Shown in pieces: positions 45,671 to 63,998 of a stretch of 64,000 nt of DNA (its first letter is position 1; the number at the start of each line of letters is the position of its first letter). Origin of the DNA: Candidatus Sulfurimonas baltica. Lineage in GTDB: Bacteria > Campylobacterota > Campylobacteria > Campylobacterales > Sulfurimonadaceae. The notes below the pieces were generated by a model. That model saw only the letters and a list, made by a program, of their open reading frames with translations, was not told the DNA's origin and ran no database searches. The stretch is taken from contig NZ_CP054492.1 in NCBI RefSeq assembly GCF_015265455.1, forward strand, positions 248,001 through 312,000, written 5' to 3'. The translations under genes were made by a program, and so were the position numbers.

Positions 45671-46519
45671 TTATTTGAAAATTATTTTAGATGTAACTTT
45701 TAAAACTACATTTTTCTCTATTTTATCCTCTATTAAATTTTTTATTACTTGCAAATCTTTATTTGTAATCGCATCTGTTGAGAGTACCTCAAGGTCAATC
45801 AAAACTGAATCGTCTTGTGTCTGTATATGTAAAATATTGAGCTCTATTTTTGTATTACTCAGCTCCATATATCTGAAGGCTTCAATCTTTTTATAATAAT
45901 CATTCTTTTCAACCATATGAATAAAAGAGATTAGAAGTGGAATAGCTATAATAAACATCATGACAGATGTGTAAATTATCCCTTTTTGTGCTCTTTTTAT
46001 GGGTGCATAACCAAGCACAACAAATGTCATAGCCGCACTTAAAGTTATACCAACAAGGTTTGTTATAAAAAGTAAAAAAGAGCCGTAAATCACATCAACA
46101 TTGCCAAGTCCTATTCCAATGCCCGTAACACTAAGAGGAGGAACTAAAGCGACAGCAATTGCTACGCCGGCCAAAGATTTTGCAATCTCCTCTTTTGCAT
46201 TTGCATAAGCACCTGCAATCCCAGAAAATATAGCAACCATTAAATCTAGTAAATTAGGATTTAGTCTCCCTTGCATCTCAGGTGTTATCTGCTGTAGCGG
46301 TATAAAAAATGTAAACAAAGCCGAAAAAGTAAGGGCTGTTGCAATCCCGTAAATAAGTGTCCTTACGCTATCTTTCATCAAAGACTTTTCAGCTCTTATG
46401 ACTCCCATAGACAAAGACACAATCGGTGCCATAGGTGGTGCTAAAATCATAGCTCCGATTATTACAGGTGCTGAGTTTGCGAAGAGTCCAGTTGTTGCAA
46501 GAAGAGTACTTAAAACCAT
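45671..46519 (-). CDS. DUF389 membrane domain, downstream half of a gene split by an in-frame stop
   Basis: A 282-residue product if translated from the ATG at 46519. PVIIGAMILAPPMAPIVSLSMG and ALVPPLSVTGIGIG are DUF389 hallmarks, in a protein of about six helices plus a C-terminal soluble domain. The ATG falls in the middle of the first helix: the same frame upstream (46520-46600) reads on as typical family sequence (KELFISLKSSAKLSYVFL) with no ATG, GTG or TTG, up to the TAA at 46603-46601. It thus looks like the rear half of one protein with the kinase-like gene behind it. Read as disrupted, or dependent on stop readthrough. Confidence 0.7.
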   Translation of the reverse strand: MVLSTLLATTGLFANSAPVIIGAMILAPPMAPIVSLSMGVIRAEKSLMKDSVRTLIYGIATALTFSALFTFFIPLQQITPEMQGRLNPNLLDLMVAIFSGIAGAYANAKEEIAKSLAGVAIAVALVPPLSVTGIGIGLGNVDVIYGSFLLFITNLVGITLSAAMTFVVLGYAPIKRAQKGIIYTSVMMFIIAIPLLISFIHMVEKNDYYKKIEAFRYMELSNTKIELNILHIQTQDDSVLIDLEVLSTDAITNKDLQVIKNLIEDKIEKNVVLKVTSKIIFK

Positions 46520-46600: not shown

Positions 46601-47590
46601 TTAAAAAAGGGGGAGTTTACCACCTATAAGAATACTACTTAATTCACCTCTTGGCAAAGTACTCAGATGAACAATATCTTTCTCTTCTATATGATTATCA
46701 TCATTTTTAACTTTTTGAAGTAAAACTCTTCCTAGGTGTATATTTATAGAATCTTGCAACACTTCAAGTTCAAGCTCTTTTGCACTTAATAAATTGTTGT
46801 CAAGCATGTAATCTATTGGTTGGTTTGAGCAAACTGTAAGTTTAGAAGTTTGTATAAAACCTAAACTTTTTGGCAAAGTTGCTATTGAAACTCGTTGATA
46901 AATAAATATTGACAATAGGTACCAAATGTACGATAAAAGTGAAGTCGGCGCCAAAACAAAAGCATTTAATTTTCCATCATGAATTGAGAGTTCATCGCTT
47001 ATTGCTGAATTTTCACCTGTGATAGTATGCTCAAGTATTGTTATTCCTGATGCGACCGTTTCTATTTTTTGATCTTTGGACGTAGTAAGTGTATAGTTTT
47101 TGAACTCTAGGTTTATTAAATTTCGAAAAAATATTTTTATTTTATTCCATATGTTATTCTCATTAAAATCAAGTCTATTCATACCATGCATATCACCGAT
47201 AATTACACGGCTTAAAGCTATGTTTTCATTACACTTGAGTATATCCACTTTGCTTAAAAGTTCATCATTAAAAGCATCATCAATAGCCTCATAAATATCT
47301 TTAGATATTGCATAGTTTCTTATAGTATTGGGAGAAGTGTGATTTGGAATTATTCCAATTTTTATACCTATGTTTAAATGATTTTTAAAAAATATCTTAA
47401 TCTCATCATCGCTAAGGTAGAGCAAAAAGAGTTCACTACTATTAAGCTCATTAAATATTTCCTTTGATGAGTGAATAGTAGGTATGATATCGTAATGTGC
47501 TTTTAAATGCTCGATTATACTACTAAGTATATCTGCACTTTTTAGCTCTTCTGCAACTATTTTTATATTTTTATATTTTGTTTCTAACAT
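46601..47590 (-). CDS. Diacylglycerol/lipid kinase-like domain, upstream half of split gene
   Basis: A 329-residue protein whose fold looks like the DAGK/YegS kinase family: an N-terminal alternating region with IGIIPNHTSPNTIRNY, recalling the GGDGT-type region but lacking the glycine-rich core, then a strand-rich part with IHDGKLNAFVLAP. It is followed in the same frame, right after its TAA stop, by DUF389 sequence. A combined product of about 640 residues is likely ancestral. GGAG precedes the ATG; TATAAT on the minus strand at 47622-47617 is a likely -10. Kinase activity is uncertain because the core motif is degenerate. Confidence 0.65.
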   Translation of the reverse strand: MLETKYKNIKIVAEELKSADILSSIIEHLKAHYDIIPTIHSSKEIFNELNSSELFLLYLSDDEIKIFFKNHLNIGIKIGIIPNHTSPNTIRNYAISKDIYEAIDDAFNDELLSKVDILKCNENIALSRVIIGDMHGMNRLDFNENNIWNKIKIFFRNLINLEFKNYTLTTSKDQKIETVASGITILEHTITGENSAISDELSIHDGKLNAFVLAPTSLLSYIWYLLSIFIYQRVSIATLPKSLGFIQTSKLTVCSNQPIDYMLDNNLLSAKELELEVLQDSINIHLGRVLLQKVKNDDNHIEEKDIVHLSTLPRGELSSILIGGKLPLF

Positions 47591-48415: not shown

Positions 48416-49180
48416 ATGGCATGGACACAAGTTTTCAGCGATGCTTACATAGTTGGATTCATTCTTCTATTCTTTAGATTTGCCGCTCTTTTTATGGCTG
48501 TTCCGATATTCTCTCACCAAAGTATTCCTATTACGCTAAGAGCTGCAATGGCTTTTTTCTTTGCAATTGTTTTTTACTCATCTATGCCACCTTTAGCAAT
48601 ACCAATAACAGTACCAAGTATTGTAATGGCAATATTAAGCGAGCTGTTTTTTGGTTTGGCAGTAGGACTGATGCTCCAAATTGCATTTAATGTTATAACC
48701 TTTGCCGGCGGACAGATATCTTTTATGATGGGTTTTTCAATGGCAAGTGCAATTGATCCGCAGTCTGGTATATCAATGCCTATTATCTCACAATTTCTCT
48801 CCCTTATGGCACTAATGGTTCTATTTGTAATAGACATGCACCACTGGGTACTTCTTTTTGTTGATAGCTCTTTACAGAATATTCCTCTGGGTGGTTTTTT
48901 AATGAGTGAAAATCTTTTTAACTACATTATCAAAGCAACATCCAATATGTTTATGGTTGGTTTTATGATTGCATTTCCAATCATTGCTCTATCTTTATTG
49001 GCAGATGTGATCTTTGGAATGCTAATGAAAACTATGCCTCAGTTCAACCTTCTTGTTATTGGTTTTCCAATAAAAATTATGGTCTCGTTCGTTGTATTGA
49101 TAGTAACATTCAGTGCAACAATGCTTATTTTAAAGACGCAAATGCAAGAAGCTTTTAATCTGTTAGAGATACTTTTTTAG
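48416..49180 (+). CDS. fliR: FliR, flagellar type III export protein
   Basis: Membrane component of the flagellar export gate, 254 residues, six predicted helices. RFAALFMAVPIFSH, FFGLAVGLMLQIAFNVITFAGGQISFMMGFSMA and DPQSG are standard FliR. It joins FliP and FliQ in the export pore. It sits between the ABC gene and an acidic repeat protein, the same order as in C. jejuni (Cj1179c). The ribosome site is weak. Confidence 0.95.
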   Translation: MAWTQVFSDAYIVGFILLFFRFAALFMAVPIFSHQSIPITLRAAMAFFFAIVFYSSMPPLAIPITVPSIVMAILSELFFGLAVGLMLQIAFNVITFAGGQISFMMGFSMASAIDPQSGISMPIISQFLSLMALMVLFVIDMHHWVLLFVDSSLQNIPLGGFLMSENLFNYIIKATSNMFMVGFMIAFPIIALSLLADVIFGMLMKTMPQFNLLVIGFPIKIMVSFVVLIVTFSATMLILKTQMQEAFNLLEILF

Positions 49181-49229: not shown

Positions 49230-50792
49230 ATGAAAATATTACTTTTAAATGATAATCCAGTAGTTAATAAGCTAGTTACACTAAGTGCACAGAAGACTTC
49301 CGATGAGCTGGATGTTGTTAGCAACGTAGATGAAATAGAGTCTAATAATTATGATCTTTTAGTGGTTGATGACGCTAAATATAGTGAAGAAATTATGCAA
49401 GAGCTTAACGATAAAATAGTATATAGTAAATCTTTATATTTATGCGTTAAAGATGCCCAAAAAGTAGAGAGTTTTACTTCAATCTTAAAAAAACCTTTTT
49501 TACCAACAGATTTAGTTGAGCTATTTGCAGTTTTAGGAAAAGAAGAAGAGAATATAGAAGATGAAGGGGATATACAATTGGATTCACTAGATGAAACTGG
49601 TGATGAATTTGATTTTGATGGTCTTGATGATTTGGATGAAATTGACGAAGACGATGAAATAAATATTGGAGCAGAAGTTGTTAATCTAGAAGAACTAGAA
49701 TTAGATGATTTGGATAGCTTAGAAGATGATGAAGAAGAAGAACTTGATTTTGATGAGTTAGATGATTTTGATGAAGAAAGAGGGGAGAGTATTCTCGATA
49801 AAGATGATATTCAAGAGATTGAAGGTCTTCTAGAGATGGATGATGAACTCGAAGAGCCCGAAGAAGAGCTAGGACTTGAAGATGAGCTTGAAATCGAAGA
49901 GCCAGAAGAAGAGCTAGGACTTGATGATGAGCTTGAACTCGAAGAGCCCGAAGAAGAGTTAGAACTTGAAGATGAGCTTGAAATCGAAGAGCCAGAAGAA
50001 GAGTTAGAACTTGAAGATGAGCTTGAAATCGAAGAGCCAGAAGAAGAGCTAGGACTTGATGATGAGCTTGAACTCGAAGAGCCAGAAGAAGAGCTAGGAC
50101 TTGATGATGAGCTTGAACTTGAAGAACCAGAAGAAGAGTTAGAACTTGAAGATGAGCTTGAACTTGAAGAACCAGAAGAAGAGTTAGAACTTGAAGATGA
50201 GCTTGAACTTGAAGAACCAGAAGAAGAGTTAGAACTTGAAGATGAGCTTGAAATCGAAGAGCCAGAAGAAGAGTTAGAACTTGAAGATGAGCTTGAAATC
50301 GAAGAGCCAGAAGAAGAGCTAGGACTTGATGATGAGCTTGAACTTGAAGAACCAGAAGAAGAGTTAGAACTTGAAGATGAGCTTGAAATCGAAGAGCCAG
50401 AAGAAGAGCTAGGACTTGATGAAGCAAAAGATCTTGAAGTCAAGATACAAAATGCTGTTGATGAGTTGAGTGAAGAGGATTTGCAAAGTGAAATTGATGA
50501 AGATATTTTATTTAGCATAGACTCCATAACAAGCAGAGATATAAAAATGGCGATTGGTGAGGAAGTTTCAGAAGAGAGTGTTGTTGAACCTGCTCAAAGT
50601 ACAGAAATAGAGGTAGAGTCTGAATTAAGCTCGGAAGAAGAGGAAGTAGACGAAAAAGTGACTAATTCTTTGGAGAATAATGACGGAGTAGAAGCTTTAA
50701 AAAAATTGCTTAAAGCTCTTTCAGATAAAGATGTTGCAGCTTCATTAAAAGGTATGAAAATAAATATTAATATAACATTAGGTGACAAGTAG
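49230..50792 (+). CDS. Receiver-like protein with acidic tandem repeats
   Basis: A 520-residue, extremely acidic protein. Residues 1-100 look like a degenerate response-regulator receiver: Asp8 in LLNDNP, YDLLVVDD with Asp47/48 and KKPF with Lys88. Then an acidic stretch and thirteen copies of a 15-residue unit, EEPEEEL[GE]L[DE]DELE[LI], and a conserved-looking end (ALSDKDVAASLKGMKININITLGDK). C. jejuni has a highly acidic protein (Cj1178c) in the same place between fliR and gmk. Function is unknown; proximity to fliR hints at a motility or envelope role. AGAGGG precedes the ATG. Confidence 0.85.
   Translation: MKILLLNDNPVVNKLVTLSAQKTSDELDVVSNVDEIESNNYDLLVVDDAKYSEEIMQELNDKIVYSKSLYLCVKDAQKVESFTSILKKPFLPTDLVELFAVLGKEEENIEDEGDIQLDSLDETGDEFDFDGLDDLDEIDEDDEINIGAEVVNLEELELDDLDSLEDDEEEELDFDELDDFDEERGESILDKDDIQEIEGLLEMDDELEEPEEELGLEDELEIEEPEEELGLDDELELEEPEEELELEDELEIEEPEEELELEDELEIEEPEEELGLDDELELEEPEEELGLDDELELEEPEEELELEDELELEEPEEELELEDELELEEPEEELELEDELEIEEPEEELELEDELEIEEPEEELGLDDELELEEPEEELELEDELEIEEPEEELGLDEAKDLEVKIQNAVDELSEEDLQSEIDEDILFSIDSITSRDIKMAIGEEVSEESVVEPAQSTEIEVESELSSEEEEVDEKVTNSLENNDGVEALKKLLKALSDKDVAASLKGMKININITLGDK
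49851..50420 (+). repeat. Array of 45-bp coding repeats
   Basis: Twelve full units of exactly 45 bases (49851-50390) and a partial thirteenth. Two main versions alternate: one with CTAGGACTTGATGAT (GLDD) and one with TTAGAACTTGAAGAT (ELED); the end is ATC, CTC or CTT. The order E-E-G of units 3-5 recurs in 9-11, as if by block duplication. The in-frame unit length allows copy number change without loss of reading frame. Confidence 0.95.
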
Positions 50793-51418
50793 TGAATAAT
50801 AATACAGGCGCAATCTTAGTACTCTCAGGTCCAAGCGGAGCAGGTAAAAGTTCATTGTTGAATGAAGTTATAAATGATATCGGTGAATGCTACTTCTCTA
50901 TATCTACAACAACTAGGGCTATTAGAAATGGAGAGGAAAATGGCGTACATTATCACTTTGTAACTGAAGAAGAGTTCAAAAAAGACATAGAAGAAGATAG
51001 TTTTTTAGAGTACGCTTTTGTGCATGGAAACTACTACGGCACATCACTAAAGCCTGTTAAAAAAGCTTTAAGTGAAGGTAAATTAGTTTTATTTGACATT
51101 GATGTTCAAGGAAATACGTTAGTAAACAATAGATTAGGGGATATTTCTACTTCAGTTTTTATTTCTCCTCCAACATTGTCAGAACTGAGAAAACGCTTGC
51201 AAGATCGCTCCACTGACACTCAAGATGTTATACAGCGCCGTCTTGAGATGGCAAAAAAAGAGATTCAGAGAATTAGCGAGTATGATTATTTAATAATTAA
51301 TGATAACCTCAAGGAATCAGCAGAGATTTTAAGAACAATTGCCAAAGCCTCAAGACTCAAGATTCCAGATAATGAAATAAATGAATTTGTGCAAAAATGG
51401 GAAAATATAGACCTATAA
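50792..51418 (+). CDS. gmk: Guanylate kinase
   Basis: Converts GMP to GDP with ATP. P-loop GPSGAGKS at 13-20, STTTRAIRNGEENGVHYHFV (GMP site), FLEYAFVHGNYYGTS and the DIDVQG motif are standard; 208 residues. The start is GTG, overlapping the previous stop, with AGGTG eight bases before. Same neighbours as in C. jejuni (Cj1177c). Confidence 0.95.
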   Translation: MNNNTGAILVLSGPSGAGKSSLLNEVINDIGECYFSISTTTRAIRNGEENGVHYHFVTEEEFKKDIEEDSFLEYAFVHGNYYGTSLKPVKKALSEGKLVLFDIDVQGNTLVNNRLGDISTSVFISPPTLSELRKRLQDRSTDTQDVIQRRLEMAKKEIQRISEYDYLIINDNLKESAEILRTIAKASRLKIPDNEINEFVQKWENIDL

Positions 51419-61819: not shown

Positions 61820-63998
61820 GTAGCAACTCCTTCGCTTCATTGAATTTATATTTATTTACTAGTTTTTTTATCTCTTCAAAAAGTTCTTTATCTTCTTGGC
61901 TTAAATGAGAGTTTTGCATCTGTTGAATAATCGGTTCACAAAGATGAGGTCTTCTTGAGGCAACTGCAACTTCAAGTTTGTTAAATAGCTCTTTGCTATC
62001 ATCATATGCCAATTTTTCACTTGTGATGCCTAGCTCAGAAATATTTACCGCATTATCAGAAAAAGTTTTCTTCTTCTCTGTGATATCACTTCTCTCTAGT
62101 GGCACTTCAAATATAAATTTACTTCCTTGATTTACTACGCTTTCAACCCAGATTTTGCCATTCATAAGTTCTGCAAGTTGTTTGCTGATGCTTAGACCTA
62201 GTCCGGTTCCGCCATATCTTCTTGTCGTGCTTGTATCGGCTTGCGTGAATGATAAAAAAACTTTATCTATCTCTTCTTGCGTTAATCCGATTCCGGTGTC
62301 ACAGACCGAAAATCTAAATATTCCGTCTAACTGTTCTACAATCAACTCGACTTTTCCGTTATCTGTAAATTTGATAGCATTTGAGAGCAGATTAGTGAGT
62401 ATTTGAGAAAGTCTTTGAGAATCTCCATGCAGATGAATAAAGCCATCTTTGTCATAATCGATTTTAAAATCTAAACCTTTTTCATCAGCTTTTATTTTTA
62501 GAATGTTTGAAATATTATCAAGTAGTTCAATTAGATTAAAATCACTGTTGTCAAGCTCTAGCTTTTTTGCTTCAATTTTTGAATAATCTAAAATATCGTT
62601 AAGCAGCGTTAGCAAGCTGTTTGAAGCAGTTTGTATATTTTTAATATATCTTTTTTGCATCTCGTTGAGTTTGGTCTGCTCTATCAGGTAGACCATGCTT
62701 ATAATTGAGTTCATCGGAGTTCTAATCTCATGTGACATATTTGCCAAAAAATTAGATTTTGTCAGTGTTGCTTCTTCTGCCTTGTTTTTTGCTTTTTTCA
62801 GGGCTATATTTAGGGTTGATAATTTTCTATTCCAAAATGAGATAATCAACAATATAATAATTGAAATAAAAATAATTTTCCAAACTAACTTATAATCAGC
62901 AATATTTTCATACTTGATGGAGATCCATTTATTGAGTATTTCTCTATGCTGAGTCTCTTTAATGCTTTGGATTATTTTTTCAAATATTTCTAAAAGTATT
63001 TTGTCATCATTTCTGACACCAACACCTAAAGTCCATTTATCATCAAACTTGCCGGCAATTTTAAGCTCGCCCGTAAACTCGGTTTGAAGCATATACCCAA
63101 CGCTGGCAAGTGTCCCAATATAACCGAACAACTTCCCTTCTTTAACTTTAGTAAGACCATCTTTTATATTTTTCACTTCTACTATATTTAGGTTTGGATA
63201 TTTATCTTTAAGTATCTCTACAAATGCATATCCTGTCGGAATGCCTAGTTTTTGATCTGTTAAAGTGCTGAAATCTGAAATAAACGACACATCGCTCTTA
63301 GTCGCCAAAACAAGAGGGATACTCAGATAAGGTGATGTGAAATTTAGATACTCTTTTCTACTTGAGGTTGCCATTGCAAGAGATAAAATATCACATTTTC
63401 TTTGCTTGGCAAACTCCAAAGACTCACTCCAAGTACGTGTTTTAAGTAGAATAAACGGAGTCTCTATTTTAGTTTGAAATATTTTAAAATAGTCTGCCGT
63501 AAGTCCCACATGCTTCCCTTTTTTAAAGCTCTCAAATGGCATCCACTCCGGGTCGATACATATAGTTATTTTTTTCTTATTTGTTAAATATTTTTTTTCT
63601 TCTATTGTTAAATTGATTTTCTCATCTTCTTGTGTATTGGATAGCCATTTTGCCTTTAGTTTGATTATCTCATCTTCAGGTATTGTTGATTTTACTTTTT
63701 CCAGTATATTTAAAAGAGTCGTGTTACTCTTGTGGGTGGCGAAATGCAACTTTAAGCTAAACCCGTCTTCTTTTACCTCAAATATTGGTTTTATATTTGT
63801 TATGGTGTGCTCGGCAATTAAAAAATTATATATAGCAAAATTACCTATCGTCGCATCAGCTTCAGAATATGCGACTGCCTTTAAGGCCTCCACAGGTGAT
63901 TTTACTAAAAGTATTTTTATGTTCGGGTATAAGTTTTTGATAAGTTCCTCTTGATAGAACCCTTTTGATATTGCTAAAGTTTTGTTATTTAAATCTGA
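61788..63998 (-). CDS. Sensor histidine kinase with periplasmic solute-binding domains, 5' end outside window
   Basis: The frame runs past the right edge of the window; a GTG at 63893 is internal, since the sequence before it continues the fold. Counting from that GTG: end of one solute-binding (SBP_bac_3) domain at 1-85, a complete second one at about 105-330 (ITICIDPEWMPFESF), a transmembrane helix at about 338-355, HisKA with FLANMSHEIRTPMNSI, and HATPase with NLLSNAIKFTDNG, DTGIGL and YGGTGLGLSI. The C-terminal 100 residues are helical without a receiver. It probably senses a small solute such as an amino acid; ligand unknown. Confidence 0.88.
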   Translation of the reverse strand, partial: SDLNNKTLAISKGFYQEELIKNLYPNIKILLVKSPVEALKAVAYSEADATIGNFAIYNFLIAEHTITNIKPIFEVKEDGFSLKLHFATHKSNTTLLNILEKVKSTIPEDEIIKLKAKWLSNTQEDEKINLTIEEKKYLTNKKKITICIDPEWMPFESFKKGKHVGLTADYFKIFQTKIETPFILLKTRTWSESLEFAKQRKCDILSLAMATSSRKEYLNFTSPYLSIPLVLATKSDVSFISDFSTLTDQKLGIPTGYAFVEILKDKYPNLNIVEVKNIKDGLTKVKEGKLFGYIGTLASVGYMLQTEFTGELKIAGKFDDKWTLGVGVRNDDKILLEIFEKIIQSIKETQHREILNKWISIKYENIADYKLVWKIIFISIIILLIISFWNRKLSTLNIALKKAKNKAEEATLTKSNFLANMSHEIRTPMNSIISMVYLIEQTKLNEMQKRYIKNIQTASNSLLTLLNDILDYSKIEAKKLELDNSDFNLIELLDNISNILKIKADEKGLDFKIDYDKDGFIHLHGDSQRLSQILTNLLSNAIKFTDNGKVELIVEQLDGIFRFSVCDTGIGLTQEEIDKVFLSFTQADTSTTRRYGGTGLGLSISKQLAELMNGKIWVESVVNQGSKFIFEVPLERSDITEKKKTFSDNAVNISELGITSEKLAYDDSKELFNKLEVAVASRRPHLCEPIIQQMQNSHLSQEDKELFEEIKKLVNKYKFNEAKELLHAKKTDNPNS

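Follow-up and report, generated by a model that had tools for sequence, protein, structure and literature searches.

ChePep of a Sulfurimonas species: an atypical receiver domain, a repetitive acidic linker, and retention of the gene in Campylobacterota genomes without flagellar and chemotaxis genes

Introduction

ChePep is a chemotaxis regulator of the Campylobacterota which, according to published reports, localises CheZ; its H. pylori gene HP0322 was first annotated as coding for a "poly E-rich protein". In H. pylori, these reports say, CheZ is polar only in the presence of ChePep, the two proteins depend mutually on each other for their polar localisation, the loss of ChePep leads to frequent reversals with a clockwise bias, and gland colonisation requires ChePep; a C. 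jejuni chePep mutant is likewise described as hyper-reversing. The gene order cheZ-trhP has also been published. A survey reported that Sulfurovum/Nitratifractor and a Campylobacter subclade are devoid of flagella and have lost all chemosensory genes, and in Nitratiruptor the flagella and chemosensory genes have been replaced.

Two other kinds of proteins are useful for comparison. The CheY-type receivers, represented here by T. maritima RR468 (PDB 3dge) and CheY (PDB 6azr), share a homologous fold with the N-terminal domain of ChePep. PopZ of Caulobacter crescentus is a polar protein with an N-terminal client region, an acidic disordered linker whose length sets condensate fluidity, and a conserved C-terminal module; it resembles ChePep in its way of working and serves as an analogy, not as a family member, no sequence relation being shown.

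The chePep locus and its neighbours

The locus lies in a stretch of 64,000 nucleotides from Candidatus Sulfurimonas baltica, hereafter the window:

48416-49180, plus strand: fliR, the 5' neighbour of chePep (PF01311, E=1.2e-59)
49230-50792, plus strand: the chePep open reading frame, 520 aa, ATG start, calculated pI 4.05
50792-51418, plus strand: gmk (guanylate kinase), the 3' neighbour of chePep (PF00625, E=2e-46), GTG start

A gap of 49 bp separates the end of fliR from the start of chePep, and the chePep stop codon shares one base (50792) with the GTG start of gmk. The open reading frame, its coordinates, the neighbouring fliR and the repeat array were all confirmed as an earlier reading of the letters (the sequence-only reading) had described them. 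Two minus-strand open reading frames running across the array (49681-50427 and 49811-50527) merely mirror the repeated sequence and were not accepted as genes.

A Pfam search of the product matched no family, and its identity was established from gene order, family-wide homology, acidic character and the literature. A ChePep profile finds homologous sequences throughout the Campylobacterota, with one main locus per genome, and the place directly upstream of gmk (and of tatA and argS) is occupied in the window and in nearly all relatives, chePep and gmk overlapping or nearly touching in nearly all genomes. Among 110 Sulfurimonas loci, some of which share one genome and are not all independent, fliR was found 5' of chePep in 109 of the 109 with enough room upstream and gmk 3' of it in 63 of the 64 with ample room downstream; the complete order ABC - fliR - chePep - gmk - tatA - argS is present at 65 of these loci and recurs across the order. 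The sequence-only reading had placed an acidic gene at the same position in Campylobacter, and ABC-fliR-chePep-gmk was indeed found (L166) in a genome of f11, a family behaving as Campylobacteraceae. More generally, chePep lies next to gmk in the genomes of g32, which are H. pylori-like, and in those of f11, which are of Campylobacter type; HP0322 and Cj1178c adjoin gmk as well. The centre of the protein is highly acidic (poly-E), with 123 acidic residues and 1 basic residue in its 195-residue array.

The genome of the window also encodes a CheZ-like protein, showing weak similarity to PF04344 (E=0.0015) and lying beside trhP (U32 peptidase). Because a profile search found no solved relative of this CheZ, its identity rests on the weak Pfam similarity, the gene order and a conserved QDIHRQ region. 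Taken together, sequence and gene order make the window gene almost certainly an orthologue of the chePep genes of H. pylori (HP0322) and C. jejuni (CJJ81176_1193), and thus a member of an already known family: what had been suggested to be a linker in the motor or export region is instead the published chemotaxis regulator that partners CheZ. A CheZ-linked role of ChePep in chemotaxis is likely in this Sulfurimonas species too. As a separate observation, both termini of the CheZ of the phylum consist of a nearly invariant peptide resembling FliM, namely MTQEELDALM at the N-terminus and D-I-E-A-L-[LI] at the C-terminus (L051 1405-2112, minus strand; L133-L162).

Structure of the window protein

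The protein can be divided into five segments, all on the plus strand:

49230-49565, plus strand: atypical receiver domain, residues 1-112 (PDB profile search, AF2, Foldseek and residue counts)
49566-49787, plus strand: acidic non-repetitive linker, residues 113-186, with 40 acidic residues and 1 basic residue in 74, predicted disordered
49788-49847, plus strand: conserved helical motif SILDKDDIQEIEGLLEMDDE, residues 187-206, with the family pattern VLDxxEIxxVKxLL and an AF2 helix at 191-206
49851-50435, plus strand: 45-bp repeat array, residues 208-402, with 12 complete units of 15 residues followed by a 13th that diverges, pLDDT ~35, predicted disordered
50436-50789, plus strand: C-terminal module, residues 403-520, with predicted helices (396-442) containing ITSRDIKMAIGEE, then the tail GVEALKKLLKALSDKDVAASLKGMKININITLG (alignment and AF2)

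The N-terminal domain had been called a degenerate receiver, with the receiver fold in structure prediction proposed as the check, and this description held: its profile matches receivers of the PDB with E=5e-6, and its AF2 model (pLDDT 83) matches receivers in Foldseek with E=1.7e-5. Conservation of the phosphorylation site was counted in 123 distinct homologous sequences outside the flagella-less set described below. Like the CheY-type receivers, ChePep keeps the phospho-acceptor Asp (Asp47, invariant in the 123) and a Lys-Pro-Phe (K88-P-F in the window protein, position 88 being K or R in all 123); in Sulfurimonas ChePep, a KPFLP motif is constant at residue 88-89. In contrast to these receivers, the first residue of the acidic pocket is Asn or Ser/Cys (116 of the 123 homologues have Asn at position 7, and none has an acidic residue there; N7 in the window protein), the second is not fixed, helix alpha4 is missing in the AF2 model and shortened in the alignment, and the domain is fused to a disordered linker without known output domain. 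No fixed Thr/Ser was found in the C72, Y70 and K74 columns of the 123 homologues. Since the site made of an acidic pair, Asp, Thr/Ser and Lys is thus incomplete, with Asp47 and Lys88 kept, we use the label atypical receiver; judged from its sequence, the domain should bind Mg poorly.

Beyond this domain, the full-length AF2 model (mean pLDDT 55.6) predicts order at residues 1-112 and three helices further on, at 191-206, 396-442 and 485-505, with no structure at 208-397, so that the proposed polyanionic linker finds support as a predicted disordered spacer. TRF places the 45-bp array at 49844-50419, with 12.8 copies, 93% matches, 0% indels and a score of 928. Thirteen near-identical units in register had been announced; twelve full ones were found, with a mean pairwise nucleotide identity of 92.5% and 7 variable columns out of 45, and the thirteenth stays in register for about ten residues and then diverges. 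The suggestion that the array grew by block duplication, based on a triple of unit types (E-E-G) seen twice, was dropped because, when the order of the units is shuffled, the recurrence of some triple of amino-acid unit types is not above chance (p=0.46); among the DNA unit types of the array, no recurring pairs of adjacent units were found either.

The pattern VLDxxEIxxVKxLL is conserved more widely than the repeats and was found in 66 of 68 Sulfurimonas proteins and in most orthologues of the flagella-less group f6. In contrast with the window protein, the H. pylori-like and Campylobacter-type ChePep examined do not show the strict pattern. Only the lineage of the window has the array of 15-residue EEPEEELELEDELEI units, whereas H. 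pylori-type repeats are of the ETPQE kind; what the window protein shares with ChePep of H. pylori and C. jejuni is the homologous N-terminal domain, the acidic linker, the C-terminal tail, the gmk neighbour, the same phylum and a CheZ in the genome. The tail, conserved and of helix-strand type, is retained even in orthologues of 140 aa. A profile search with the C-terminal module for a solved relative found none, the best match having E=0.44.

Turnover of repeats and linker length

Tandem arrays were found in 60 of 103 ChePep orthologues, with units and periods that differ between species, and linker length across the phylum ranges from 0 to 549 aa. An old gene carrying young repeats, as the sequence-only reading had it, is borne out by these orthologues, and so is the keeping of the reading frame: the periods of 159 of the 164 arrays in the 103 orthologues are divisible by three. 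The change of copy number that had been expected among strains was seen between relatives. The nearest relative of the window protein (G032, with 86% identity in the N-terminal domain) carries 4.3 copies of a different 45-bp consensus. Four Helicobacter-type (g32) genomes whose N-terminal domains are 88-92% identical encode proteins of 442-558 aa, a spread of up to 116 residues, and ETPQE-type units number 15 in one of the four but 5 in each of the remaining genomes. These differences in length, unit number and consensus between sequences point to a copy number that changes fast between close relatives. One Sulfurimonas ChePep of 279 aa (L070) has a short linker; throughout the 68 Sulfurimonas proteins, the net negative charge is 0.43 +/- 0.05 per residue.

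Several unusual forms of the gene were also encountered. An Hpt (phosphotransfer) domain is inserted after the conserved motif in two Sulfurimonas ChePep, at residues 232-279 in L016 (G007; Pfam E=4.7e-4, below its cut-off) and at residues 190-267 in L021/L106 (G020; E=7.7e-9), and is lacking in the close relative L019; the insertion hints at a recruitment of ChePep into a phosphorelay. In a single-cell Sulfurimonas genome (L092 3501-4040), chePep ends after 180 aa within a repeat array, possibly through an out-of-frame repeat change or an assembly error. Another single-cell assembly, which may be a chimera, contains a 1012-aa open reading frame in which the N-terminal half of ChePep is followed by a histidine kinase carrying HAMP and HATPase_c (L097 3495-6530). 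Finally, in one flagellate genome (L170/L191, G192), a frameshift near codon 28 splits chePep, making it a pseudogene or the product of a sequencing error.

chePep in genomes without flagella or chemotaxis genes

The survey of 220 near-complete Campylobacterota genomes showed that chePep is kept in genomes without FliM, CheW domains and CheZ. FliM is absent from 21 of the 220; no CheW domain was found in these 21 genomes, so CheA, CheW and CheV are gone, and the CheZ of the phylum was not found in them at E<=0.1. The ChePep profile matches in all 220 genomes, a count not taken at face value because at about E=1e-5 the profile also picks up ordinary receivers; gene order served as a check on the flagella-less cases, while the other low scorers were checked in part. 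Of the 21 flagella-less genomes, 20 keep a ChePep match, and the open reading frame is intact in about 19 of the 21, the copy of G250 being truncated. In the regions fetched from these genomes, gmk immediately follows chePep in 18, chePep immediately follows the ABC gene in G263, and fliR was detected in none. The exception is G134, with no ChePep match beyond an ordinary receiver. In that genome (L273 2165-2680), fliR and chePep are missing, and a small gene judged by eye to encode a phospholipase-D-like nuclease stands between the ABC gene and gmk. The literature searched, which does not include the two primary ChePep papers, gave no description of the retention of chePep without chemotaxis, a finding that is tentatively new.

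The retained copies fall into four groups: f6, g34, g27 and the single genome G263, of which f6 and g34 fit the surveyed lineages without flagella (Sulfurovum/Nitratifractor and the Campylobacter subclade). Proteins of f6 have a short linker or none, and the smallest of them, at 140-146 aa, are made of the receiver and the tail only. The linker is mostly long in g34, where one genome (G221, L252) carries a 183-bp array with 100% matches in TRF, and the N-terminal domain has drifted, with profile E-values of only 2.5e-10 to 2.7e-6. In the retained copies, P-F is present in 20 of 20, K88 in 19 of 20 and D47 in 17 of 20. The only close flagella-less pair (G223/G242) shows a dN of 0.056 and a dS of 0.303. 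The ChePep profile also matches in ten more genomes, six of f18 and four of g31, which do have flagella (FliM is present) although CheZ was not detected in them, the match being strong in the six f18 genomes (E about 1e-34 to 1e-38); f18 resembles Nitratiruptor, with one protein containing three CheW domains in G053.

Possible roles of ChePep

That chePep survives the loss of flagella, of CheA, CheW and CheV, and of CheZ makes it probable that the protein has a core role outside chemotaxis. The explanation that we lean towards as a whole, if by little, is that of a scaffold having such a core role and CheZ as a client. In this Sulfurimonas, ChePep would concentrate the phosphatase CheZ at the pole, where CheY-P would then be removed; the repeats would form a self-repelling, length-tolerant spacer, whose units may be gained, lost and homogenised in frame; and CheZ would be a client in some lineages of the phylum only. 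We give even chances to the wider proposal that ChePep is at heart no chemotaxis protein but a phylum-specific scaffold with a core function outside chemotaxis. On this view, it outlasted some four apparently independent losses of flagella together with all chemosensory genes, as well as the replacement of the entire flagellar and chemosensory set of the Nitratiruptor type, and CheZ would have been recruited to it as a client.

The likeness to PopZ bears on how such a scaffold may work. The plan of ChePep would correspond to that of the Caulobacter protein, with a client-binding N-terminal domain, an acidic disordered spacer and a C-terminal assembly module, and by this analogy ChePep is tentatively seen as a polar scaffold of the PopZ kind, with a polyanionic spacer that tolerates changes in length. 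The two proteins differ in several respects: the N-terminus is a short helix in PopZ and a receiver domain in ChePep, proline amounts to 29% in PopZ versus 0-8% in ChePep, and linker length stays in a narrow range in PopZ versus 0-549 aa in ChePep. PopZ forms condensates by oligomerisation of its C-terminal module; in ChePep the corresponding module is conserved and has predicted helices. A PopZ-like compensation of linker length by charge was looked for in ChePep and not seen.

An unlikely alternative to a core role outside chemotaxis is that ChePep is purely chemotactic, the flagella-less copies being either decaying relics or an upstream frame needed for the translation or transcription of the essential gmk. 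The CheZ link published for H. pylori agrees with a purely chemotactic protein, and the overlap or closeness of chePep and gmk in nearly all genomes agrees with a leader. Slow decay would also fit the gene loss in G134, the truncation in G250, the f6 copies without long linker and the drifted N-terminal domains of g34; the dN/dS comparison comes from one pair. Against decay, dN is well below dS in that pair, most of the open reading frames are intact, and flagella-less lineages of family rank retain the receiver core as well as the C-terminal tail; a role as leader would leave KPFLP and the tail free to change, and the f18 genomes still match although their flagellar and chemosensory set was replaced.

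Two further alternatives concern parts of the protein. The motif VLDxxEIxxVKxLL might be a CheY-binding peptide like the N-terminus of FliM or the ends of CheZ, with which ChePep would hold CheY-P beside CheZ. By eye, it resembles the FliM N-terminus of the phylum (ILSQEEIDALL) and the CheZ ends (MTQEELDALM, DIEALL); however, 7 of 10 f6 genomes and G237, all without FliM, CheW domain and CheZ, retain it, and its strict pattern was not found in the examined proteins of f11 and g32, groups in which chemotaxis depends on ChePep. Since genomes with no chemotaxis still have the motif, we consider this improbable. As for the array, it is quite possible, if doubtful, that it is a neutral filler, any acidic disordered stretch being sufficient and its length having no functional effect: the range of linker lengths, the units and periods varying by species, the short-linker Sulfurimonas version and the young array of the flagella-less G221 all agree with that, but pure neutrality does not predict that a strong net negative charge is kept despite the turnover of the sequence.

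ChePep is described as a chemotaxis regulator, yet its gene is in place where the survey reports that all chemosensory genes are lost. In flagella-less strains, other functions of ChePep can be sought without motility confusing the phenotype, and the family, whose linkers range from nothing at all to about 550 residues, offers a ready-made length series for studying acidic disordered spacers in polar assemblies.

Other features of the window

Upstream of the locus, a 329-aa open reading frame without Pfam match (46601-47590, minus strand) directly precedes a DUF389 gene (45671-46519). A short AT-rich tandem repeat of ~24 bp is present at 63569-63628.
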